This document shows, piece by piece, positions 372 through 15,067 of a DNA stretch of 34,634 bases. Both the position numbers and the translations under genes were made by a program. Where the stretch lies: positions 1-34,634 of the forward strand of contig JAUHWS010000012.1 in NCBI GenBank assembly GCA_030427295.1. Reading direction: 5' to 3'. The DNA is from a bacterium. Its GTDB lineage: Bacteria > Patescibacteriota > Gracilibacteria > UM-FILTER-43-11. The first letter of the stretch is position 1. Each line of letters starts with the position of its first letter. Below the pieces are notes generated by a model. It was not told where the DNA came from. It was given only the letters and a program-made list of their open reading frames with translations, and ran no database searches.

Positions 372-1202
372 ATGCCAGAATCAGTTGAAAAAATTGTTGC
401 CCCCCCTCAAGCTACTACTGCTGTTACTGCAGCAGAAACTCAAGGAATACCTTTACAAGTAGAATTTAAGGATGGTGTAAAAGACTCACGTAGAACGGAG
501 GGTGCTTTTTGGCAACGTGTTGCTCTATGGGCTAAATTAGGTTTAGCTTCTACTCCTGTCCTAAGTGCGTCCGCTTGTGGAGATGACGGCTGCATCGAAG
601 ATTCGCGGCGGCCAGAGGAGTGCGCTATCAATCCTATTGATTGTGTTAATATAAATGAATGCGAGGCAGATACAGATGTTAACTCTAGTACTGGTTTTGA
701 CTCTGGTGAATCTGAAGGTGAAGCGACAGCAGGTGATTCGGATGGTGATCCCACAGCAGATGCAGGGACTTCAGGTGGTGAAATGACAGGCTCAGATGCA
801 ACGGGTGGTCCAGAAACTGGTGCTGAGACATCAGGAAATGAGACGGATGCTGGGACGGATACGGGAATTGATGCTTTGCCTGTAATGGATACTTGTATCA
901 TGACACCACTTTATGGAGAGAATATGGATGTGGTTGCTTCTAGTGAAAAAATGACTGTTATAATGTCCGGTTCTAATTTAGCTAAATTTAATGTCTATAT
1001 TGAGGTTAACGGTGGCCCAAAAGAGACTATTTTATCCAATCAGGCGCCCTTGGACTCAGAAAATATAGAATTTGACTTTATTACACCTGCAATTAATGAT
1101 GCTGATGTAACTTTGTATGTAGATATTGATGGTAAGATGACGGTTCAAACATTTTTTACTTTGAATACTGGTTCTTGGGATGGCAATTGGGTAAATTGCT
1201 AG
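372..1202 (+). CDS. putative secreted lipoprotein with acidic Ser/Gly/Thr/Asp linker
   Basis: I do not recognise a family. The 276-residue protein has an unusual layout. About 47 polar residues come first, then a short hydrophobic stretch (about 48-68) ending LSASAC-GDD, which resembles a lipobox with Cys69. A Cys-rich segment with six Cys follows (about 74-97). Residues 100-168 form a low-complexity linker rich in D, G, T, S and E, and the last 100 residues are predominantly beta-type with an Ig/TIG-like look, ending in Cys. The 'ACGDD' start plus linker resembles lipoproteins of myxobacteria, where the linker spans the envelope. The long N-terminal extension is atypical, and there is no downstream Met before the hydrophobic stretch that would shorten it. 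The gene has its own consensus promoter and converges on the giant pilin gene with a 2-nt gap. Surface location is inferred. Confidence 0.6.
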   Translation: MPESVEKIVAPPQATTAVTAAETQGIPLQVEFKDGVKDSRRTEGAFWQRVALWAKLGLASTPVLSASACGDDGCIEDSRRPEECAINPIDCVNINECEADTDVNSSTGFDSGESEGEATAGDSDGDPTADAGTSGGEMTGSDATGGPETGAETSGNETDAGTDTGIDALPVMDTCIMTPLYGENMDVVASSEKMTVIMSGSNLAKFNVYIEVNGGPKETILSNQAPLDSENIEFDFITPAINDADVTLYVDIDGKMTVQTFFTLNTGSWDGNWVNC

Positions 1203-1204
1203 AT

Positions 1205-3511
1205 TTATTTGCATTTACAAATTCTGTTTTGCTCAGAGTCTATAAATGATGAACAGCTAACATCTCCTTCTTTTCTGTAAAAACATCTTTTTAGATTGTC
1301 ATCATAAATTGGAGCGTAGTCGTTTTCTAGTTCAAGAATTTTACTAGGATATTCTTCAATTAGGCTAATGCATATCATTCCATCATCCGCTACTCCGTCT
1401 CCACCACAAACGCCATCTGGGCCGCAGTCGTTCCAGTTGGGATCGGGGTCACATTGAGCCGTGGCTGTTAGGCTTCCGCAAGCAGTGTCACATGCTTGGC
1501 CTGCTTCACCCAAAACCCAACAGCTACCCTCTTGCCACAAGCCATTGTCGTCTTCTTTGCCTTGATCATTGAGCAAGTTGTTTCCAAAACAGCTAGCCAT
1601 CACGGCGGGTAAAACAGCGAGTTCATGGGTGGCGGTAAAGTCTTGGTAATTGCATGTAATCATTTGAGCGCCCTTGGCCTTGGTATCATTGACAGTGAAG
1701 ACTCCTGGGTTGTCTGGATCCATTGCTCCCAAATTTTCATTCGATAGATTCCATTCACATAGCTGCTCCACATCTTCCTTTGTCCCATCATCGTAACTAG
1801 CCTGCACCATCATCTTAAGTTTTGCGTTTTCCACTGCTGCCAACCGATCTTCATCATTGATGATGACCAGGTTGGTTAATTTTGCAGCCCCATCTTCCAA
1901 AAGTTCAGGGTAAAAATCGATTCCAAATTCGTAGATGTATTCGTCATTTGGATTAGGCTCTAAACCAAGGGCCGGCCATGATATTCCAGAATAACTTGCT
2001 TCTTGTCGTCCACGCAAAATGATGGATTCCATCCCATCGGTCTCCGCATTGTAAAACGGATTGTCTGCTTGTTTTTGGTAGGGGATGTCAAACACATAGG
2101 CCTGCACATTCTCGTCGTAATTCACTTGATTGGTTGAAAATAGGGGCTCTACATTTGCTTTGAGCACTCGAGTGTCTGCCGTTTGAGACTCTCCAAAAAG
2201 GTCAAAGCCTTCCACCTTCACCCCATCATTGTCCATCAGTCCGTTGAAAGTCACATGTATAGTGTAGGTCCCATCCGCATGGGCGACTGCTTTGGTGATG
2301 TAGGGCCAATCTGTTGATGAGATCGTTGATCCATCCTCACCATAATATTTCTTAAGGATCTCTTCCTGTTCTGCTTCGTTCAGCTCAGTTCCATTCCCCA
2401 CAGGAATTTTAAAGCGTTTCATGGTTTGACCATCCGCGTTGGTTTCTTGGTCCGCTGTGAAGTCATTGGCAGAAAATTCTAAGAATTGCCCCTCACCATT
2501 GCTACTTGCTTTTTCCTCATCTGTTTTGAGTCGGGCAGCCACTACTCCCGACAACATGGTGATGGTGTCGTTGTCGGCGTTGATTCCAAATTCCGTTCCC
2601 CGTACACCCGCAATGGCATTGGTCGTTTCGACGTTGAATTCTGAATCACTCGACAAGTGAATCACTTTGTTCCAAATTTCTCCTTCGAACAATTTGAGGC
2701 GCACCTTGCTTGAAATATTGTCCTCATCATTTTCGGCCACTTCTGAATTCGGAAGGATTTGTAACTCAGTGTTTTCATCCAAGTGGGTCACTGAGCCGTC
2801 TGACAAATAAAGTATGACACTGGATTGAGGCCCTGTGGCAATGAGGTCGCCTGCCACTGCAGTGGTGTCCTCGTTTGCCCCTTGGCCATTGACCGTGACC
2901 GCCCCCACCGCTTGTTGGATCCGTCCAGAAATATCAAAAGGATTTGGGCTGTAGGGGAGTTGCGTGGCTCCATTGGTGACTAAGTTGGGACTGTCAAAGG
3001 CTTGAATGAGACCCGCTTTTTGAGTGGCCCCTTCTATATTTCCTAAAACCTGCGCCACCCATTCTCCTTCATCGTTCATTTTATTTCCAGCCACCTGAAA
3101 AAATTGGCCGTCGGTTGTCACGGCATAAATATAGCGTGCATTGCTACGAGGATCTGTTGGGACTTCTTGTAGATAACGTTTAGTGAGTAGCTCATTGTCC
3201 ACTTGGGTTTGCAGATAACTTGCTTTGTCACAATCATGAATGTATTGGTCCGTTTCGTCAAAGCAGCGTATGTTTCTGTTCTCACCTAGTTTGATGGGTT
3301 TATCAAAGGTGGGATAGACTCCTTCTTTCTCTTTGTATTGATTAAGGGCGTTTTCGATGGCCAAGAGATCAGCAGAGACTTTTTCGTTCATCACTGTGTC
3401 TTGAGAGCTGCTTAAACCGATGTAGGCACCGACTCCAATAATGGCCAAAAGGGCAATGACGATGATGAGTTCGGTCAAAGTGAAGCCTTTGCGAGAGAGA
3501 GCATTTTTCAT
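1205..3511 (-). CDS. giant type IV pilin-like protein with internal FecR domain
   Basis: The 768-residue protein starts with a class III prepilin leader: MKNALSRKG, then F10 TLTELIIVIALLAIIG, with cleavage after Gly9 and Glu at mature position +5. The first 150 residues follow the major pilin/pseudopilin (GspG-like) pattern, with the amphipathic helix and a YKEKEGVYPTF segment. Residues about 197-312 look like a FecR domain: GAVTVNG, a GDLIATGPQSSVILYLSDGS segment, LFEGEIW and TTNAIAGVRGTEFGI. The long C-terminal part is predicted beta-rich. The last 120 residues hold about a dozen Cys, suggesting a disulphide-stabilised tip. Ordinary pilins have 130-200 residues, so this is probably a pilus-borne adhesin or tip protein. 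It is the last gene of the pilus locus and has its own promoter candidate at 3542-3571. Function beyond pilin-like export is inference. Confidence 0.85.
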   Translation of the reverse strand: MKNALSRKGFTLTELIIVIALLAIIGVGAYIGLSSSQDTVMNEKVSADLLAIENALNQYKEKEGVYPTFDKPIKLGENRNIRCFDETDQYIHDCDKASYLQTQVDNELLTKRYLQEVPTDPRSNARYIYAVTTDGQFFQVAGNKMNDEGEWVAQVLGNIEGATQKAGLIQAFDSPNLVTNGATQLPYSPNPFDISGRIQQAVGAVTVNGQGANEDTTAVAGDLIATGPQSSVILYLSDGSVTHLDENTELQILPNSEVAENDEDNISSKVRLKLFEGEIWNKVIHLSSDSEFNVETTNAIAGVRGTEFGINADNDTITMLSGVVAARLKTDEEKASSNGEGQFLEFSANDFTADQETNADGQTMKRFKIPVGNGTELNEAEQEEILKKYYGEDGSTISSTDWPYITKAVAHADGTYTIHVTFNGLMDNDGVKVEGFDLFGESQTADTRVLKANVEPLFSTNQVNYDENVQAYVFDIPYQKQADNPFYNAETDGMESIILRGRQEASYSGISWPALGLEPNPNDEYIYEFGIDFYPELLEDGAAKLTNLVIINDEDRLAAVENAKLKMMVQASYDDGTKEDVEQLCEWNLSNENLGAMDPDNPGVFTVNDTKAKGAQMITCNYQDFTATHELAVLPAVMASCFGNNLLNDQGKEDDNGLWQEGSCWVLGEAGQACDTACGSLTATAQCDPDPNWNDCGPDGVCGGDGVADDGMICISLIEEYPSKILELENDYAPIYDDNLKRCFYRKEGDVSCSSFIDSEQNRICKCK

Positions 3512-3541: not shown

Positions 3542-3571
3542 ATTTTAACATAGTCATCAGGTTTATATCAA
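3542..3571 (-). promoter_or_regulatory. candidate promoter for the giant pilin gene
   Basis: On the minus strand TTGATA (3571-3566) is followed by 18 bp and TAAAAT (3547-3542), ending 30 bp before the pilin ATG and just downstream of the ATPase stop. It would let the abundant structural protein be expressed apart from the upstream operon. Confidence 0.45.
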
Positions 3572-3574
3572 CAA

Positions 3575-4879
3575 TTAGTGGCTGGCGATCACATTGTTGA
3601 CCTCTTCAAAACTGGTGAGTCCTTTTAAAACTTGTAAATAGCCATATTGTTTGATGGTCAACATGCCTCCATTGATGGCTGCTTTTTGAATGGCTTGTTC
3701 ATTGCCACTTTCAAAATTGATAATACGTTTGATTTCATCTTCAATTTTCATCACCTCCATGATGGCCATGCGCCCCTTGTATCCTACCCTTGAACAATTC
3801 TCACAGGATGTCTCATTTGACTTGAGTACCTCTATTGATTTAGACGCTTCTTGAAATATGGTTTTTATTTTACTGTGACTTGATTTAAATGATTTCTTAA
3901 TTTCATTTAGAATGACTTCAGTTTGAGGATCAGGTGTTGAGCAATTTTGACAAAGCTTTCGAATGAGTCGCTGAGCGACGACGTATTTTAAGGAGGAGCT
4001 GATGAAATAGTGTGGCACTTTCATTTGCAGTAATCGGGTGATGCTTGAGGCAGCGGTGTTGGTGTGCAAGGTAGAAAAAACCAAGTGTCCTGTGTTGGCT
4101 GCTTCAAAGGCTTTATTGGCTGTTTCTTCATCTCGCATTTCACCCACCATGATGATGTCAGGATCTTGTCTTAGGGTCACCCGCAAGGCTTTTTCAAAAT
4201 CATAGCCAATGCGATGAAACATCTGGGATTGATTGACGAGTGGAATTTCAGCTTCAATGGGATCTTCGAGCGTGATGCAGTTTTTTTGACTGCGATCGAT
4301 TTCTTTTAGTAGGGCGTAAAGTAGGGTGGTTTTTCCGCTCCCTGTGGGTCCTGTCACACAAATGAATCCATGGGGGAGTTGGATGGATGCTGTGAGGGAT
4401 TTTGTGTAAATGGGTAGAATGCCGAGTTGGTCGAGCTCACATGTATTTACATCTGCCATTTGCCTCAAAACCACTTTTTCTTCTTGCTGGTTTCGGATGG
4501 TGCAAGGCATCAAGGATAGTCTAAAATTATAGATCGTTTCATTTAGTCTGAATGAAATTCTACCATCTTGAGGCAATCGTCTTTCGTCTATTTTTAAACC
4601 CGCATCTAATTTTAATTTGTTAATTATTCCTCTATATAAAGGAATGTCTTCAAATAAGCCGGCATCAAAACAGTGACCATCCACTCGATATCTTATTTTA
4701 AAAGCGGCTTGCCCTTTTTTACTCAGGGTTAGATCAATGTGGATGTCTGAGGCTGATTTTTCAATGCTATTTTTTAGTATTTCATAAACGAACCCGTTGG
4801 CATCCATTGCATTGTCTTGATTGAGGATTTTTGCTTTTGATCCCTGATTTGATTTTAAGAGGGTGTTGAGTTGAATCAT
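3575..4879 (-). CDS. type IV pilus assembly / type II secretion ATPase (PilB/GspE family)
   Basis: This cytoplasmic hexameric ATPase powers pilin polymerisation. Motifs in order over 434 residues: the N2 region with SASDIHID (42-49) and VDGHC; Walker A GPTGSGKT (177-184); an Asp box around CITLEDPIE (201-209); Walker B DPDIIMVGEMRD (239-250); the His box TGHLVFSTLHTN (263-274). Cys310, Cys313, Cys359 and Cys362 form the zinc-binding tetracysteine motif of PilB/GspE, which PilT lacks. It is shorter than typical PilB (about 560 residues) because the N-terminal MshEN/GspE_N domain is missing. A 50-residue insert sits between the two Cys pairs. The start codon overlaps the stop of the upstream gene (ATGA), indicating translational coupling. 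No PilC platform gene or prepilin peptidase gene lies in the window. Confidence 0.92.
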   Translation of the reverse strand: MIQLNTLLKSNQGSKAKILNQDNAMDANGFVYEILKNSIEKSASDIHIDLTLSKKGQAAFKIRYRVDGHCFDAGLFEDIPLYRGIINKLKLDAGLKIDERRLPQDGRISFRLNETIYNFRLSLMPCTIRNQQEEKVVLRQMADVNTCELDQLGILPIYTKSLTASIQLPHGFICVTGPTGSGKTTLLYALLKEIDRSQKNCITLEDPIEAEIPLVNQSQMFHRIGYDFEKALRVTLRQDPDIIMVGEMRDEETANKAFEAANTGHLVFSTLHTNTAASSITRLLQMKVPHYFISSSLKYVVAQRLIRKLCQNCSTPDPQTEVILNEIKKSFKSSHSKIKTIFQEASKSIEVLKSNETSCENCSRVGYKGRMAIMEVMKIEDEIKRIINFESGNEQAIQKAAINGGMLTIKQYGYLQVLKGLTSFEEVNNVIASH

Positions 4880-7440
4880 TGGTTTTGATTGTAAGGGTCT
4901 AAAACATCTCCTGAGCTTGGATTGACCTGTTGCCAGATTTGGTATTCGTTGGGGAGGGTTTGATCTCCCGGAACGGGTACCACATACTTTCGCATATCTT
5001 CAATTAAATGTTCGGATGGTTCATTGATGGCTTCGGGTGATTGCTCTAGATATGGCTTGCGTTCCCAGTAGGTTTTTTTAGCAATGACATCTCCTAAAAT
5101 TCTGAGTTGCTCATGGCTTTCTCCACTGTGAAATTCGTTACGAGCTAGTAATAAAATTTCTAAATCTTCGACTTCTCCGGATACATAAATGTTGTGAGCG
5201 TCAATTCGTAGTGATGGAATGTCAGCATATTGGGTTGTATTTTCAGGGTCGTATAAAATGTCGGCATTGAGGTAAACATCACCTTCAACGTAAAGTCGCG
5301 ATTGTCCTCCTTTTATCTTTACTTGATCATTTATCCCTTCTTTTCCAATCACTAAATCACCGGTTTGGTGCCACACCACTCCATTTTGGATGTCAATGAT
5401 TCCATTCAGCTTATTGTGAAAATGGTCGATTTTTACTTCTCCGTAAAATTCATGCTCCAATAAATCTGTTTCAAAATCACGGGGATTTTCTGTTCGGTCA
5501 TAGGCATTTCCTCGATTGATGAAATCAAGGTCGGCTCCTTCCACTTCCCATGCTTTTCCCGAGGCTGAACGGAAAAAATCATTTTCCTTTCCAGAGAAAA
5601 CCAGGTAATCTGCGTTGACTTCTCCAGTGGGGGAGTAAAGATGGCTAGGGGTTAAAATTTTATTGGGTTCATACACCCATTCGTTGGGTTCCATGTAGTC
5701 ACTTCCTCCAAATGTCAAATTCACTTGATTGTACTCACCACTTCCACTTTGAATAAATTGATTAGTTCCCACATGGCCTCCTTCGGTTTTTAGCCAGGCG
5801 GTTGAACTGTAGACTGAAATGGGAGTTTGGTCTTCGTCTTCAGGGGTGAGCGGAGTGCTTGAGGTTTTTTGCCAGGTGTATACTGGGTACTGATCGGTAT
5901 GGATGCAATCTTCTCCACAGCTGCAGGTATCGTAAGTTTTTATTTGCCCATTGGGTTTGTAGGTCCATAAATCTTCGCTTAAATTTACAAGCTCAGCCTT
6001 TGAGTTGACAATTCCCATTGATCCATCTTCGATGGCGCGGGCGACAGTGAATTTTTCGGGGGCTTTAATGACTCCTCCCATTTGCATGAATTGATTGACT
6101 GATCCTGTATCTCCGTAATGATAAATTTTTGTCTTGCTGTGTTGGCCTCCATCGGTGATCAGACTGGGGCTTTGATTGGGAAATTCTGAGCTTAATGAAA
6201 TGTCTAGTGTTTTGCTTGAGAGGCGGCAGTTGCTCATTTTTTCACAATTCCCTCCACTAGAATTGTAGGCGTAAACCGTGGATCCTTTTCCATGGTCATA
6301 TTGATAGTTACTGCAATAACCTTGATAAGTTTGGTTGCCTGATTCATAGATTCCAAAATTTCCCGTTAAATTAAAAGTGTTTGGCTTTCCTCTTCCTGTG
6401 TATTGGATGACATACTGAGTTTCGCTTAAATCAGCTTGATCGGGTCGCGGGCTTTGATTGGGTGAATTAAGAATTAAATTGGGAACTTGTTCGGTGTATA
6501 AAGTGAATTCTCCACTGCCGATTTTCATTTCGTGATTGATGGGATGATGAATGAGTACTACGAGATCCTTTTTTTCCATTTGATCTGTTTTGATTGAAAC
6601 GATTTTATGTTCAATTTGATCGAGTTCGACATTGTCTAAAGCCTGCACGGTCATTTCGACGGTCATGTTTTCACCTGGTGCAAGGGGTTCGTTGAATTGA
6701 ATGAGGCCACAATTTTCAATACAACTTGTTCCTTTCGGAATGTAATTGGTCAACTGAATTGAATCAATGAGTTGCCCTCCTGCGTTTTTTAATTGATAGA
6801 GATAGCGGATGGTTGATCCCGGAAAAACGGTTTGCCCGGCTGAAGGGAAGCTGGTAACTTCTAGATTTAAACTCCCTGTGGCTTCCCCTGTGATTTGATT
6901 TTGAACCACATTGCTCATGACAGGGATGGAGGAGTGTCTTCCAACCAGTGACGCGGAAGCTACTGTGTGAACAGGGTCGCTTTTTACGGAGTCGGGTACT
7001 TTGGCTTTGTATTCGATTTCAATGTCGATACTGCTTCCGGCTGGCAAATTATCAATTTTGTAGCCATTGCTGAGGGTTGAGTTTTCATTTTGGTCTTTGA
7101 TGATTTTTTCTGACTGGTCCTCAATCATTTTTGTGGAGCCAGGTTGATAGCTCATGTAAAATGGCTCTTCCATGAACAATCTTAAATCGTTTAAGGTTTT
7201 TTCACCTTGATTTGTTACGTTGATTTTGTAAATGACTTGTCGTTCCTTTTCAAACGATTCCCCTTCATCTTTGAAGTCGTGTTCCAGGTCTTGGGTTTCA
7301 ATGAAGAGAGTCAATTGTACATCCTCTAAAACGGTTCCAGCCTGGACTGAATTGAATGGTAAGAAGAGTGCAGAGCTCAAAAATAGAATTCTTATGCTTG
7401 CTTTCAAGTAAGTGTTCATGTTTAGGTTGTTAATTTCCAT
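4876..7440 (-). CDS. large secreted DUF11-like protein of the pilus locus
   Basis: This 854-residue protein has an N-terminal signal peptide (hydrophobic about 13-30, cut near VQAG). Two DUF11-like beta-sandwich segments follow: QVIYKINVTNQGEKTLNDLR with YMSYQPGSTKM, and VFPGSTIRYLYQLKNAGGQL with NYIPKGTSC. These are typical of repeat adhesins. The middle is a long polar region with scattered Cys. Near residues 715-790 short strands repeat (LYVEGDVYLNADI, LRIDAHNIYVSGEV, LRILGDVIAKKTY), suggesting a beta-solenoid of the kind seen in bactofilin-like or PilX-associated proteins. It overlaps both neighbours by 1-4 nt, so it is co-translated with the VWA-like gene and the ATPase. It is probably a pilus-associated surface protein. 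No enzymatic motif is seen. Confidence 0.7.
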   Translation of the reverse strand: MEINNLNMNTYLKASIRILFLSSALFLPFNSVQAGTVLEDVQLTLFIETQDLEHDFKDEGESFEKERQVIYKINVTNQGEKTLNDLRLFMEEPFYMSYQPGSTKMIEDQSEKIIKDQNENSTLSNGYKIDNLPAGSSIDIEIEYKAKVPDSVKSDPVHTVASASLVGRHSSIPVMSNVVQNQITGEATGSLNLEVTSFPSAGQTVFPGSTIRYLYQLKNAGGQLIDSIQLTNYIPKGTSCIENCGLIQFNEPLAPGENMTVEMTVQALDNVELDQIEHKIVSIKTDQMEKKDLVVLIHHPINHEMKIGSGEFTLYTEQVPNLILNSPNQSPRPDQADLSETQYVIQYTGRGKPNTFNLTGNFGIYESGNQTYQGYCSNYQYDHGKGSTVYAYNSSGGNCEKMSNCRLSSKTLDISLSSEFPNQSPSLITDGGQHSKTKIYHYGDTGSVNQFMQMGGVIKAPEKFTVARAIEDGSMGIVNSKAELVNLSEDLWTYKPNGQIKTYDTCSCGEDCIHTDQYPVYTWQKTSSTPLTPEDEDQTPISVYSSTAWLKTEGGHVGTNQFIQSGSGEYNQVNLTFGGSDYMEPNEWVYEPNKILTPSHLYSPTGEVNADYLVFSGKENDFFRSASGKAWEVEGADLDFINRGNAYDRTENPRDFETDLLEHEFYGEVKIDHFHNKLNGIIDIQNGVVWHQTGDLVIGKEGINDQVKIKGGQSRLYVEGDVYLNADILYDPENTTQYADIPSLRIDAHNIYVSGEVEDLEILLLARNEFHSGESHEQLRILGDVIAKKTYWERKPYLEQSPEAINEPSEHLIEDMRKYVVPVPGDQTLPNEYQIWQQVNPSSGDVLDPYNQNQ

Positions 7441-9362
7441 TAAAGGGTTAGGTTGCCACGGATGCGTTTGGATAGTTCTTTTACAGCCTCTTGAAAGGTA
7501 GTTTCAAAATTCTCAACATAATTTTTTTTGGTGATCAACTTGTAAATCAATTCTTTATTGAGTGGGATTTTTTCAAGTCCGTGGTGAATGAATTCTTCTT
7601 TGTCCAGAAAGTTCATGATGTAGTAAAGCGCTTGAAAATAGTCACTCTCTTTTTGAAGATTTTGACCTAGCGAGGGAGTGATAATATAAGTCAAATATTG
7701 AGCCGCTTTTTCGAGTTTGACGGGTGACTGGGCGGAAAAATTTGGAAAAAGTGATTTGAGCATGCTTTCGTTTTGAATGTCTTTTTCTTCTAGGCATTTG
7801 AGCATCAATTGAGCGGCTTCTGTTTCTGTGATTGATGTTTCTGATTCATTTTTGTCGACATAAAATTCATGAGGACGAGAACGGTGGCTTTTGCTTTGAT
7901 CTTCAAAAATAACCACCACTTGCATGATTTGATATCGGTTACAGTCGTTTAGTGTCACGTCGTAATTTTTTTCTGTGGTAGTTGTGAGCAATTTGTCTCC
8001 CGACCACAACTCAAAACTTATGCCTTTTTTGACCGTGGGTCCTGACCAGGTCCACTTCACTGTTTGTTCGTCTTTCAATTGAGCGTCTAAAATTATTCCG
8101 TCATCGTAGATGTGTACGGGTAGGGTGATGAGTCCTGTTTCTGGTTGATTGGTGGAGTAGGGGGTGTGGGCTGAGATATAATATGAGAATGAGTTTTGTT
8201 CTAATAAGCTGTCTTTTAAATTTGTTGCAAATTTTAGAAGGTCGTCAGTGGAATCGGCACGTTGGTGAAGGAGGGGGATGGATTCAAATATTCCGTCTTG
8301 GTTCAAATAATTTAGTAAGCTGACGTTGATGGCTTTTTGGTGATTTTTGATGGATAAAGAAAAGTCTTCTAAATTGTCATTATTGAATTCATTTTCGGGA
8401 AGGTGTTCGATTTCTAGTTGGCTATTAATCGGTTTTTGGTAGCTGAATTGATAGACTGGTTGGTTGTCGATGGCTAAAGTGACCGGGGTTTTAGAGAATT
8501 CTCCAGGATGCTGCCTGGTGTAATATTGAAAGACAAAATGGTCTTCTGATTGCTTTAAAAGCAGATCTCCTAGGCTGCTTAAATCGGTGGCAAATCCACC
8601 TAAATACCCTCCTCGAATACTGTGTGCAAAGTCGGCGATTAGGATGGATGGATCGTCCACGCGTGGTTGATGTATTTTTTGAAAGGGGTGTCCCATTACA
8701 AAGCTGAGATCACTTTGGGTGTTGACGGCTTTGATGGCGGCTTGCATTTTCTGTCCTGTCACTCCATCGGGACGGCTGTCTTCAAAAGCACTTCCATTGA
8801 AAATCAGGAAGACCTTTTGGCTGCCTTCTCTTTTTTCATGTTTGGCGAATGTTTCTACTTTTGAAAATCCATCTATTTTGCCTTCGGATTGATTTTTAAA
8901 TTCAAGTGAATCGATGTGCTCGATGTTCTCACTCAGTATTCCGCTCGAATTTTCTCCTTCATTTTGAAAGGTGGAAAGGACTAGTTTGGTGTCTAGGTTC
9001 TTTTTGTTGAGATAAATCAAAAGACTTTTCAGGTTGGCTTGAATGATTTTCCCCCAATTTTGATCGTCAGATTCGAGATCAATTAAGACATGAAGGTCAA
9101 TTTTTTGAGGTTTTGGATGGGGTGGCATTAGGACGATGGGGTTGATATTGATTTGATCATTTTCTCGGATGCTCAAATGCTTGGGGAGCAGATTCTTATT
9201 TTCCCCTTCAATGGACAGGGTTCCTTGGATGCGTGGAAATTCGGATTCATCAATCCATGCCTCTGTCACTTCGTAGGGGGCAGCGGCTTTGGCAGTCAGA
9301 ATGACAATGATAGAAAATAGGATTGCCAGAGTGATTTGCTTGATTTCTTTGAGAATTTTCAT
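7440..9362 (-). CDS. secreted protein with degenerate von Willebrand A-like domain
   Basis: The 640-residue protein has an N-terminal signal or anchor (KQITLAILFSIIVILTAKAAA). Residues about 85-260 have the alternating strand/helix order of a VWA fold: DLHVLIDLESDDQNW, TKLVLSTFQNEG, KVFLIFNGSAFEDS and LSFVMGHPF. The first strand ends DLESDD, where a canonical MIDAS has DxSxS, so metal binding may be altered or lost. A beta-rich middle and a helical C-terminal 130 residues follow. VWA proteins occur as tip adhesins or assembly factors in pilus systems, for example PilY1 partners and CPR pilus loci. Its stop overlaps the next start (TAATG). The VWA assignment is by secondary-structure pattern and is moderate. 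Confidence 0.6.
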   Translation of the reverse strand: MKILKEIKQITLAILFSIIVILTAKAAAPYEVTEAWIDESEFPRIQGTLSIEGENKNLLPKHLSIRENDQININPIVLMPPHPKPQKIDLHVLIDLESDDQNWGKIIQANLKSLLIYLNKKNLDTKLVLSTFQNEGENSSGILSENIEHIDSLEFKNQSEGKIDGFSKVETFAKHEKREGSQKVFLIFNGSAFEDSRPDGVTGQKMQAAIKAVNTQSDLSFVMGHPFQKIHQPRVDDPSILIADFAHSIRGGYLGGFATDLSSLGDLLLKQSEDHFVFQYYTRQHPGEFSKTPVTLAIDNQPVYQFSYQKPINSQLEIEHLPENEFNNDNLEDFSLSIKNHQKAINVSLLNYLNQDGIFESIPLLHQRADSTDDLLKFATNLKDSLLEQNSFSYYISAHTPYSTNQPETGLITLPVHIYDDGIILDAQLKDEQTVKWTWSGPTVKKGISFELWSGDKLLTTTTEKNYDVTLNDCNRYQIMQVVVIFEDQSKSHRSRPHEFYVDKNESETSITETEAAQLMLKCLEEKDIQNESMLKSLFPNFSAQSPVKLEKAAQYLTYIITPSLGQNLQKESDYFQALYYIMNFLDKEEFIHHGLEKIPLNKELIYKLITKKNYVENFETTFQEAVKELSKRIRGNLTL

Positions 9363-9377
9363 GTGATTTTGAGGAGA

Positions 9378-10364
9378 TTATTTGATAATGGATTCATCGC
9401 TGAAGTGGACAAAGTTTAGTCCGGGAGCTAGTCCTTCTTCGGTTTGACGTTGGTATTTGAGGCGTTGATAGACCCCATTCACAGTCCCTCCAATGAGGTC
9501 GATATTTTGCATGAGGTTGGGTAGAATGACTGCTTTTCCTTGGTTTAAGGCATTGAGCTGATAGTGGATGGGTTGGTTGTCTAGGGTTTGAAAATGAAAT
9601 ATGTAGTTGTTTTCTAGGGGATTGAATCCGGCAATGCGCAGTGACTTTTTATTATTTTTACTGGAGTCAAACTGGGTGGTGAGGGGGATGTCTGTATTAA
9701 ATGCGAAGCTGGAGGAGGATTGGTCTGCACTGTTGATAATGATTCGTTTGAAAGGGTTTTTTTCAGGATTGTTTTTGAGATCTTCAAAGTTGGGAAGTTG
9801 GATCATTGTATTTTCTTTGGGAAAAATGATGACTTCAAATGCGATTTCTGAATGTTGGCTGTTTTGATCCCACTTGAATTCAATTTCGTTGAAGTTGTTT
9901 TCGATTTCTACTTCTCTGATGACAAAGGTTCGAGAGGGTTCGGCTTCGACGCCGTAAAATACATTTTCTGACCAAAGCTCTTTTTCGTCTTCATTTATTC
10001 TGGCTTCGAGGACTGGGGCACCTTGTAGTGGGCTGGTTTTTTGTGCGGTGTGTAAAAATGAATCACTTACATTCATTTTCCGTCGATTGTAAAATGATTC
10101 TGCGCCTTGTTGGTAGCTCAAGAAGTTACTTGCACCTTGTTTTTCACGATTCTGATTTTCGGCTAAAAATCTTTGATTTGAGGTTGAAGGATGATTTTCT
10201 CCCAGGTCGGCGATGGTTTTCTCGATGCCCCCTTCGGCGGTATATAGGGCTTGGGTAGCGCTGAGCAAATCATTGCTCACGGACAACTCCTTGTAGAGTA
10301 TAGATACATCCACTAAGACGAGGGTGTAGATGGCGAGGGCTGTGGAAATGATTAGTGTGTACAT
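9378..10364 (-). CDS. PilX-like minor pilin, apparently lacking its prepilin leader
   Basis: Residues 1-22 form one hydrophobic helix (MYTLIISTALAIYTLVLVDV), followed by ALYTAEGGIEKTIADL. That 'A.YtAEgGIE' pattern is characteristic of PilX_N minor pilins. The rest of the 328 residues is a beta-rich soluble domain. Normally a basic leader ending in Gly precedes the hydrophobic helix. Here an in-frame TAA lies 9 nt upstream of the ATG, so no such leader can be encoded. The upstream sequence is a heptamer repeat tract bordering the inserted S23 gene, so the 5' end may have been lost at that junction. It may still insert in the membrane as an uncleaved N-terminal anchor. It lies 15 nt from the VWA-like gene and is presumably co-transcribed with it. 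Confidence 0.7.
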   Translation of the reverse strand: MYTLIISTALAIYTLVLVDVSILYKELSVSNDLLSATQALYTAEGGIEKTIADLGENHPSTSNQRFLAENQNREKQGASNFLSYQQGAESFYNRRKMNVSDSFLHTAQKTSPLQGAPVLEARINEDEKELWSENVFYGVEAEPSRTFVIREVEIENNFNEIEFKWDQNSQHSEIAFEVIIFPKENTMIQLPNFEDLKNNPEKNPFKRIIINSADQSSSSFAFNTDIPLTTQFDSSKNNKKSLRIAGFNPLENNYIFHFQTLDNQPIHYQLNALNQGKAVILPNLMQNIDLIGGTVNGVYQRLKYQRQTEEGLAPGLNFVHFSDESIIK

Positions 10365-10761: not shown

Positions 10762-10792
10762 GCTATGCGCTATTCGCTGGACGCTAAACGCT
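10762..10792. repeat. heptamer tract (GCTANNC) at S23/pseudopilin junction
   Basis: 7-mers GCTATGC, GCTATTC, GCTGGAC, GCTAAAC, GCT. It is the complementary-strand version of the AGCG family and provides the last codons (RLASSE) and the TAG stop of the pseudopilin. Confidence 0.8.
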
Positions 10793-11435
10793 TTTTAATT
10801 AATAATGTTTTGCTGACATCAAAATTCAGGCTAACCTGCCCCCCTTCATTCTCTTTGTACTGAAAAATTAGTTCTATCTGATCGAACTTTTCTTGATCTT
10901 TGAATAATTCATCTGTATTTGCTGGAGTGAATTCTGGTCCAGCATCGATAAAAAAGACTTTGGCGAAAGGAGGGATGAATCCAATGTAGGCGGAAGAGAC
11001 GGTTTCACTTTTTTCACTCTCGTTTTGAGTGAGTCTGATTTCTTTCAGAAATACGTGGGTGTTGGGGTACGGATGTTCTTTTTGATAGATCCATTCCATG
11101 CTTCCGTTTTCATTTTGGGTGAGTTCCAAATAGCGATAGGGGATGGGGTCTCCAAAGTCGTTATTGCTTTGGAAGTGGAGGAGGTAGGCGAAGGGGAGTT
11201 GGCTTGGATTTTCGATGTTTTGCCCTTTGATGGCTCCAAAAGATTTTCCAGCCATGGCATAGTGGAGCGTGCTGATGAGATCTTGTTTGATTTGCTTTAT
11301 GGTGGCTTCCATTTTTATCTCTGGCTCCAAGGAGTTTACCAGGGGGGCGGATAGCGAAAGCATCAGGGCGGCGAGGCCCATGACGATGAGGAGTTCAATG
11401 ATCGTGAAGCCTTTGTTTTGAGTTCGCCAGGTCAT
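10770..11435 (-). CDS. GspH/FimT-like pseudopilin
   Basis: This is a minor pilin of the type IV pilus/type II secretion class. The leader MTWRTQNKG precedes F10 TIIELLIVMGLAALMLSLSAP, with Gly at -1 and Glu at +5 for prepilin peptidase. The mature part has the FimT-like helix IKQIKQDLISTLHYAMAGKS and a beta-rich C-terminus. I chose the ATG at 11435. A TTG at 11450 would add five residues (MKSKL) and is a possible alternative. It is the first gene of the pilus operon behind the promoter at 11529-11557. The last residues RLASSE and the TAG stop lie inside a heptamer repeat tract, so the original C-terminus was probably replaced. Confidence 0.85.
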   Translation of the reverse strand: MTWRTQNKGFTIIELLIVMGLAALMLSLSAPLVNSLEPEIKMEATIKQIKQDLISTLHYAMAGKSFGAIKGQNIENPSQLPFAYLLHFQSNNDFGDPIPYRYLELTQNENGSMEWIYQKEHPYPNTHVFLKEIRLTQNESEKSETVSSAYIGFIPPFAKVFFIDAGPEFTPANTDELFKDQEKFDQIELIFQYKENEGGQVSLNFDVSKTLLIKKRLASSE

Positions 11436-11460
11436 CAATTTAGATTTCAAAATAAACCGT

Positions 11461-13536: not shown

Positions 13537-14394
13537 CTAATTCGTGTTGGCCCAGTAATGTTCCACCAATGTCTGGCTGCGTTCCATTTTCTCGAGGATT
13601 TCACCTGATAGTGAAGTTTGGGCATCAAAGTAGAATTCGGTGGTTTCGATTTCGGATTCTTCTGGGTCGAAGGCTTCATCCGTGATTGGTCGATTGTAAT
13701 GATGGATTTCTTGGATGACGTAAATGAGTTCACCCTCTACAAAATAATATTTGGAGACGGTTTTTCCGGTTTCGCCCAAGAGTTCTTCTTTGATTTTTCG
13801 CACGTAGCCTTCTTTTTCGTAGAAGGTGGCGGTCCCACCTTCGGTGGAATGGTTCATCCACGGCATTTCAGTTTTTTTGCAGGTGGTCAGCCCTTCGTCA
13901 ATGGCTTGGACTTGGGCTGAGATTTGATCGGTGCTCACTTCTCCTCCAAATCCACTTGTGGCCACTTCGATGCTGCTGTCTTGTTCGGGCGGGGTCATTT
14001 CTTCGGCTTCCATGCTGGCTTCGGTGCTCTCTTCGGCAATTCCTGGTTCGATCGCCAATTCATCAGGTGCCTTGTCTTGCGTGGTGAATGAAATGGGTTC
14101 TGTGATCAAAACCACCACGATGAGGATGGCTAACACCCCTCCGGCAAAGGGTAAGAAAGTGCGGTTGAGTAGTTGCCAGAAATTTTGTCTTACTTCTTCT
14201 TCCGTTTGATTCAATTGACTGGCCTCATGCTCTAGTAAATTTTTTAGTTGTTTCACAAAATTTGGATCCACCTTTAAATGAGGTTTGGCTTCGAGTAATT
14301 GTGCGATCAATTTTTTTAGATCCTCTTCCTTTGATTTGAGGCTGGGGTCCACGTGGTATAAATCGTTTAAGATGGATTGAATATCGTTTTTCAT
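13537..14394 (-). CDS. probable single-pass membrane anti-sigma factor
   Basis: This 285-residue protein is encoded 22 nt after an ECF sigma gene. Residues 1-78 are soluble and helical, matching the cytoplasmic sigma-binding part of anti-sigma factors but without a zinc-binding HxxxCxxC motif. A membrane helix (about 79-100, FLPFAGGVLAILIVVVLITE) follows, then an extracytoplasmic part with an acidic linker (about 105-150) and a C-terminal beta-rich domain (about 165-280, e.g. YYFVEGELIYVIQEIHHYNR). Position and topology are typical of anti-sigma factors that sense an envelope signal. There is no recognisable sequence family, so the function is inferred from context. Confidence 0.65.
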   Translation of the reverse strand: MKNDIQSILNDLYHVDPSLKSKEEDLKKLIAQLLEAKPHLKVDPNFVKQLKNLLEHEASQLNQTEEEVRQNFWQLLNRTFLPFAGGVLAILIVVVLITEPISFTTQDKAPDELAIEPGIAEESTEASMEAEEMTPPEQDSSIEVATSGFGGEVSTDQISAQVQAIDEGLTTCKKTEMPWMNHSTEGGTATFYEKEGYVRKIKEELLGETGKTVSKYYFVEGELIYVIQEIHHYNRPITDEAFDPEESEIETTEFYFDAQTSLSGEILEKMERSQTLVEHYWANTN

Positions 14395-14416
14395 GACAAG
14401 GGTCTCGACTGGAGAT

Positions 14417-14968
14417 TTATTTAATGAGTAAAAGGAGAATGAGGAAGGGGGCGAAGTCGTCTCTTAGTTTTTCCATCACGCGCTTGAAGCTCATTTTACA
14501 GGCGGCTTCGGTTTTTCCCATGATTTCGGCGATTTCTTTAAAACTGTGTCCACCCCACACTCGCAGGAGTATGATTTCGCGTTGCTCGGGCTTGAGCTTG
14601 TCCATGTATTTTTGGATGGATTCTAGTTTCATTTGAAAATCGGTGTCACGTTCAATATTTACTTTTTGATCGGAAATATCCCAGGCATCGTCGATGTTTC
14701 GCGTTTCTTTGTGTTGGCGATAGTGATCGATGATGGTGTTGCGGGCGATTTGATAGAGCCAGGTTTTGAAGGAGGCTTTTTGTTCGTTAAACTGACCGAT
14801 GGCTTTCATGGCTTTCATAAAAATACGACTGGTCAAATCCTCTGCGGTTTCTTTGTGATGGACTTTGAAATAGGTGAATTGATAGATTTTTTCGACGTAG
14901 CTTTCGTAGAGGGTTCCAAATTGGCTCAAATCGCCTTGTTGGCATTGTCTGATCAGGGTCGCTTCCAT
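14417..14968 (-). CDS. ECF-type RNA polymerase sigma factor
   Basis: The 183 residues carry the two sigma domains of ECF factors. Region 2 is at about 25-92, with AEDLTSRIFMKAMKAI and ASFKTWLYQIARNTIIDHYR. Region 4 is at about 122-170, with LKPEQREIILLRVWGGHSFK, EIAEIMGKTEAACKMSFKRV and MEKLR as the -35-binding helix-turn-helix. The last residues, FAPFLILLLLIK, form an odd hydrophobic tail. It is co-transcribed with the membrane anti-sigma candidate. A SigW-like motif lies upstream at 15042-15067, compatible with autoregulation. The regulon is unknown; the adjacent pilus and envelope genes are candidates by proximity only. Confidence 0.93.
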   Translation of the reverse strand: MEATLIRQCQQGDLSQFGTLYESYVEKIYQFTYFKVHHKETAEDLTSRIFMKAMKAIGQFNEQKASFKTWLYQIARNTIIDHYRQHKETRNIDDAWDISDQKVNIERDTDFQMKLESIQKYMDKLKPEQREIILLRVWGGHSFKEIAEIMGKTEAACKMSFKRVMEKLRDDFAPFLILLLLIK

Positions 14969-14991
14969 GATTTAGGGTGATAGGGTGATGG

Positions 14992-15041: not shown

Positions 15042-15067
15042 TACGAGAGATTTTGGGAAAAGTAACT
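15042..15067 (-). promoter_or_regulatory. candidate ECF-type (SigW-like) promoter of the sigma operon
   Basis: On the minus strand AGTTAC (15067-15062), a 16-bp spacer and CGTA (15045-15042) resemble the TGAAAC-N16-CGTA consensus of B. subtilis SigW. A sigma70-like TATACT -10 overlaps it. It overlaps a decayed repeat cassette, so it could be chance. Confidence 0.3.

Follow-up and report, generated by a model that had tools for sequence, protein, structure and literature searches.

The protein encoded at positions 1205–3511 (minus strand, ATG start) of contig JAUHWS010000012.1 was found to join a type IV pilin part to a FecR domain and an exchangeable C-terminal end. We regard it, with a probability of roughly 0.7, as a modular minor pilin that displays its putatively adhesive C-terminal module on the type IV pilus, at the tip or close to it. 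The best explanation for its FecR domain is that of a structural module, not of an anti-sigma signalling domain. The window, that is, the whole stretch of 34,634 nucleotides that was analysed, belongs to a Peregrinibacteria-like Patescibacterium with a genome of 1.48 Mb in 98 contigs. The first-pass annotation had offered two readings of the FecR domain, coupling of surface contact to an ECF sigma factor or a structural adhesin module, and the second was found to fit the data better.

For the adhesin we counted the conserved stem (49–60% identity in the pilin part, 70% in the FecR core) as opposed to the variable end (15%), the pilin leader and FecR matches themselves, the two alternative terminal modules, the confinement of the Cys-rich tail to these proteins in 18 genomes, the scores against Leptospira adhesins, the structural match to 5ix9 and the precedent of Streptococcus sanguinis PilB and PilC. 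Against it we counted the low confidence of the structure models (mean pLDDT of 57 and 53), a Cys-rich tail that belongs to no recognised family, the strong conservation of the FecR core and a tip location argued by analogy. The analysis adds the architecture of the pilin-FecR family, the exchange of its ends and the lack of support for ECF coupling.

Domain architecture of the modular pilin

The protein begins with a class III prepilin leader and a GspG-like pilin part; next comes the FecR domain, and then a variable extension that runs into the Cys-rich tail. The leader, MKNALSRKG/FTLTE, had the class III motif with Glu at +5, and Pfam N_methyl was matched at residues 7–30 (E = 2.4e-6). Profile comparisons of the pilin part matched the sequences of GspG and geopilin in the PDB and, in NCBIfam, GspG (E = 2e-8) and TIGR02532. 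The class III leader and N-terminal pilin helix that characterize modular pilins, both proposed from the first inspection of the sequence, were thereby recovered. This module (residues 1–160, positions 3032–3511) contains Cys83 and Cys94, and it is followed by a conserved linker (residues 157–196, positions 2924–3043) with the consensus SLIRAYDGPNFV...LPYSPD and a mean pairwise identity of 52% (n = 13 sequences).

The FecR-fold module (residues 197–326 with a core at 268–312, positions 2534–2923) was delimited by Pfam PF04773, the identity of the core and the strands of the model, and the variable beta-rich extension (residues 327–639, positions 1595–2533) by its low identity and a low-confidence model. 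The Cys-rich terminal module (residues 640–768, positions 1208–1594) was delimited by alignment. Recomputation of the ORF confirmed the previously stated length of 768 residues and the Cys-rich end, as 12 of the 16 cysteines lie within residues 640–768.

A pilus subunit with a signalling-type domain had been put forward as a new way of coupling contact to transcription. The combination of pilin and FecR is already catalogued: in Raynaud et al. 2021 (PMC8179133), pilin-FecR (IPR006860) is among the 15 commonest modular-pilin architectures. IPR006860 is PF04773, the FecR domain (PMC5498481). Like the present protein, the catalogued IPR006860 proteins carry a FecR domain grafted onto an N-terminal type IV pilin (PMC8179133). 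Here, a long variable extension comes after the FecR domain, and the protein ends in one of two exchangeable modules.

Conservation and distribution of the fusion

Homologues of the pilin-FecR gene were found in 13 of the 18 genomes of the host's order, including one in which the frame has one TAG (G014) and one in which the contig lacks the gene start (G016). Divergent forms were present in two relatives with in-frame TGA codons, which were translated with genetic code 25, a code that these codons fit. The assembly is of metagenome type, with 98 contigs, and an error of assembly or gene calling might in principle have joined two genes. But 13 independently sampled genomes share the fusion (in one of them the frame has its single TAG), and the two TGA-recoded relatives have divergent versions of it; the artefact was thus already refuted by independent homologues and its probability is negligible. 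Judged from these sequences, the fusion is a genuine, old family trait.

The mean pairwise identity (n = 13 sequences) was 49% in the leader and helix and 60% in the pilin head. It rose to 70% in the FecR core, the highest value of the whole protein, and fell to 15% directly after the FecR domain (residues 327–398). In a phylum-wide survey of 333 sampled genomes, with six candidates scored per genome and E ≤ 1e-24, there was no pilin-FecR match except in the window's own genome, a cut-off that may miss divergent forms like those of G048 and G056. A full pilin-FecR gene was also observed in a record titled Deltaproteobacteria (JAQTNF010000003.1), reflecting either a mislabelled bin or horizontal transfer.

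Identity of the FecR domain

Pfam placed PF04773 at residues 223–324 (E = 5.9e-13, 49.5 bits against a cut-off of 24), and the FecR region as a whole spans about residues 197–326. The limits of 197–312 given earlier were thus about right, with conservation extending further, to about residue 326. In NCBIfam the top matches of the FecR part were models of Leptospira surface adhesins and lipoproteins (Lsa33, E = 2e-13; LipL45, E = 2e-10), and the E. coli FecR model followed behind them with only E = 5.6e-5; since all these scores are under the model cut-offs, they show a shared domain and not a shared identity. Among the FecR-fold surface lipoproteins of Leptospira (Lsa33, LipL45 and Lsa19), against whose models the pilin FecR scored best, none is a pilin, and the match is far under the cut-offs.

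When 55 FecR domains were placed in a tree, the clade of ECF-paired FecRs (support 100/98) contained no pilin FecR. The pilin FecRs also stood apart from the secreted FecR proteins of those genomes. Separately, a FecR fragment resembling Bacteroidetes-type anti-sigma FecR was noticed in G001 (C66), possibly on a contaminating contig.

Structure prediction, which the first-pass annotation had named as the test of the FecR fold, gave an AlphaFold2 core model of low confidence (mean pLDDT 57), too weak to decide. Part of the FecR region was better, with blocks of 65–92 at residues 191–260, but values fell to 41–56 around residues 281–320. With this low-confidence model, the top Foldseek match was 5ix9, a cell-surface anchoring domain (probability 1.00, E = 0.027), and the anti-sigma factor structure 4m0n was matched with a probability of only 0.38 (E = 2.8). 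The FecR identification is carried by the sequence profiles, not by the predicted fold. The model of the extension (mean pLDDT 53) suggests an Ig/FnIII-type sandwich at about residues 400–515, for which Foldseek returned FnIII-type matches.

Relationship to the ECF sigma factor

It had been proposed that the pilin FecR couples contact to transcription through an ECF sigma/anti-sigma pair encoded 11 kb upstream on the same strand. The position is literally correct: the ECF sigma factor (14417–14968, minus strand), recognised by Pfam sigma70 regions 2 and 4, lies next to a 285-residue membrane protein that is an anti-sigma candidate (13537–14394, minus strand). According to this proposal, the pilin FecR would touch the 285-residue protein, and pilus contact or retraction would release the sigma factor. 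FecR domains do work in ECF signalling, and a true, dedicated ECF and FecR/anti-sigma pair, with a FecR protein of 734 residues, is present in the window's own genome (G000:C78). Nevertheless, gene linkage, co-occurrence, the promoter motif and the FecR tree all spoke against the coupling, as did the presence of a dedicated pair elsewhere in the genome. We consider it very unlikely; both genes were rejected as partners of the pilin.

Four other genomes (G001, G003, G012 and G014) carry both the ECF and the pilin-FecR gene, each time on separate contigs. This ECF type was absent in 8 of the 13 pilin-FecR genomes, and the co-occurrence that had been suggested as a check was not significant (5/13 fusion genomes with the ECF gene versus 0/5 others, Fisher p = 0.25, with G016 and G017 covered for the anti-sigma gene only). 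Outside the family, ECF and anti-sigma homologues occur without the fusion. Moreover, no FecR domain was detected by Pfam in the anti-sigma candidate.

A conserved autoregulatory promoter, GTTAC-N16-CGTA, was found with constant spacing upstream of six of seven ECF homologues by motif comparison; all six are in the family, and the out-of-family G018 lacks it. The scan covered the window and 14 homologous pilin loci. The window holds a single copy (15042–15066, minus strand; 0.09 expected), before the ECF gene itself, and the motif was not found at the pilin gene, the pilus operon or any of the 14 loci. This promoter could define the regulon of this sigma factor, although a sigma regulon need not include the gene of its own sensor, a caveat on the promoter comparison.

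The pilin shares PF04773 with FecR-type anti-sigma regulators such as E. coli FecR and the 734-residue protein, and its FecR domain would likewise lie in the extracytoplasmic part, as the pilin leader implies. In contrast to these regulators, its N-terminus is a pilin leader and helix and not a cytoplasmic anti-sigma domain; no cognate sigma gene adjoins it consistently among relatives, the ECF gene being 11 kb away here and unlinked elsewhere; and its FecR domain belongs to a different clade from the ECF-paired FecRs. Such ECF and FecR/anti-sigma pairs were recognised by position in 14 genomes of the family, three of which lack the pilin fusion. A FecR match should not be taken as evidence of sigma-factor signalling.

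Exchangeable C-terminal modules

The Cys-rich module, with eight invariant cysteines and the terminus RICKC, forms the C-terminus of eight proteins across the 18 genomes, including the protein of the window. Four homologues end instead in an alternative module; these ends are related to one another and Lcl-like. Pfam Lcl_C was matched weakly in one of the four (E = 0.002, 18.8 bits against a cut-off of 34.9), and none of the four reached the cut-off that would class them as Lcl-type adhesins. In G015 two pilin-FecR paralogues were observed, one with the Cys-rich and one with the Lcl-like end. The Cys-rich module was not found outside pilin-FecR genes or their fragments in the 18 genomes; an extra match in G015 was a short fragment on a contig shared with a partial FecR match. 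Comparison of the Cys-rich tail with Pfam and PDB gave no match to a recognised family. By sequence, a constant stem with an exchangeable end is the pattern expected of a tip adhesin.

Proposed role at the pilus tip

Direct sequence evidence exists for the leader and helix of the pilin, for the FecR domain, for the conservation and for the swap of C-terminal modules; for cleavage, assembly, location and binding, the scheme below leans on S. sanguinis PilB and PilC (PMC8179133, PMC9934059). By this analogy, prepilin peptidase would cleave between Gly9 and Phe10, and the pilin part would be built into the type IV filament. The bulk of the protein makes the tip its probable position, which would leave the module exposed. 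The conserved linker, together with the FecR domain, might act as a stiff spacer or as a docking collar. Attachment to a partner cell or surface may be the task of the variable extension and its terminal module, whether disulfide-rich or Lcl-like. Models place PilB and PilC at the tip of the pilus, and the two pilins bind host proteins or glycans (PMC8179133, PMC9934059). Like the present protein, they are large minor pilins of a monoderm bacterium in which a ligand-binding module, putative in the present case, sits on a small pilin; their modules, however, are vWA and lectin domains without FecR, and their function has been shown experimentally.

With its constant stem and exchangeable ends, the pilin-FecR family is a good candidate for the determinant of partner choice, and it supplies a defined, testable set of candidate binding modules. 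Type IV pili have been implicated in host-finding by Patescibacteria. All cultivated Patescibacteria are obligate episymbionts, and Saccharibacteria use type IV pili in episymbiosis (PMC12206443).

Other membrane signalling genes

Alternatively, the FecR domain might signal to, or dock on, some other membrane receptor, of the CHASE2 or SpoIIE/STAS partner-switching type, so that contact would be reported without an ECF factor. FecR-CHASE2 gene pairs have been described (PMC5192318), and in G008 one pilin paralogue has a CHASE2-cyclase gene at a distance of about 2.6 kb. No other part of the protein is as strongly conserved as the FecR core. Since a pure spacer would have no need to exceed the pilin in conservation, there could be a specific binding partner. 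Just upstream of the pilin gene, a gene for a transmembrane SpoIIE phosphatase is found in five genomes of three genera, and four of these five loci also have STAS/RsbW-type genes. However, SpoIIE genes were present in all 18 genomes, fusion-free ones included, and were unlinked in most; an opposite-strand gene intervenes at three of the five loci; and no such signalling gene adjoins the window's pilin. We thus consider this alternative unlikely. The partner-switching cassette was rejected as the cognate partner for want of specificity: it adjoins the pilin gene in no more than five genomes, from three genera, yet occurs throughout the family.

A contact-reporting role of the pilin-FecR protein is accordingly possible but not likely. 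It also seems improbable that the FecR core docks a dedicated extracytoplasmic partner, in which case the tip would both grip a cell and report contact to a membrane signalling protein other than the ECF pair. At one locus (L042:704-9035), genes for a multi-PAS histidine kinase, a response regulator, an RsbW-like/STAS protein, a STAS protein and a membrane SpoIIE phosphatase were observed in a row upstream of the pilin.

Gene neighbourhood

Upstream of the pilin gene in the window lie, all on the minus strand, genes for a pilus assembly/retraction ATPase of 434 residues (3575–4879; T2SSE, Pfam E = 8e-106), a secreted DUF11-type protein of 854 residues (4876–7440, by profile matches), a secreted protein of 640 residues (7440–9362), VWA-like by eye and with no Pfam match, a PilX-like protein of 328 residues recognised by eye and synteny (9378–10364) and a GspH-like pseudopilin of 226 residues (10770–11450; N_methyl E = 2.5e-5, and synteny). 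The middle three were assigned to a pilus gene cluster. Homologues of the 640-residue gene are present in G001, G005 and G008, in which the order with the PilX-like gene is kept, and in G001 a relative of the DUF11-type gene adjoins that homologue. The pilin-FecR gene lies on a different contig in these three genomes; a conserved operon of the pilin with pilus genes was hence rejected, the arrangement in the window not being general. A sigma70-like promoter (TTGATA-18-TAAAAT with TG; 3542–3571, minus strand) between the ATPase gene and the pilin is a consensus match, in a scan that gave about as many sites as shuffled sequence.

On the other side, a gene for a 276-residue protein with a lipoprotein-like Cys motif (372–1202, plus strand, from the ORF reading) converges on the pilin gene, the two stop codons being 2 bases apart. 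At most pilin-FecR loci (L034, L035, L037, L038, L040, L043 and L047) an opposite-strand gene for a secreted, often lipoprotein-like protein likewise converges. Short secreted proteins of the YD-shell/Rhs-core type with differing C-terminal domains were observed adjoining pilin-FecR genes in five genomes (L044:7255-8322 and 13907-14977, L045:2250-3302, L043:6227-7129, L041:3-1013 and L035:2236-3330). Their C-terminal domains include an M15/VanY peptidase in L045 and a match to Ntox24 in L035, and these proteins look like polymorphic effectors.
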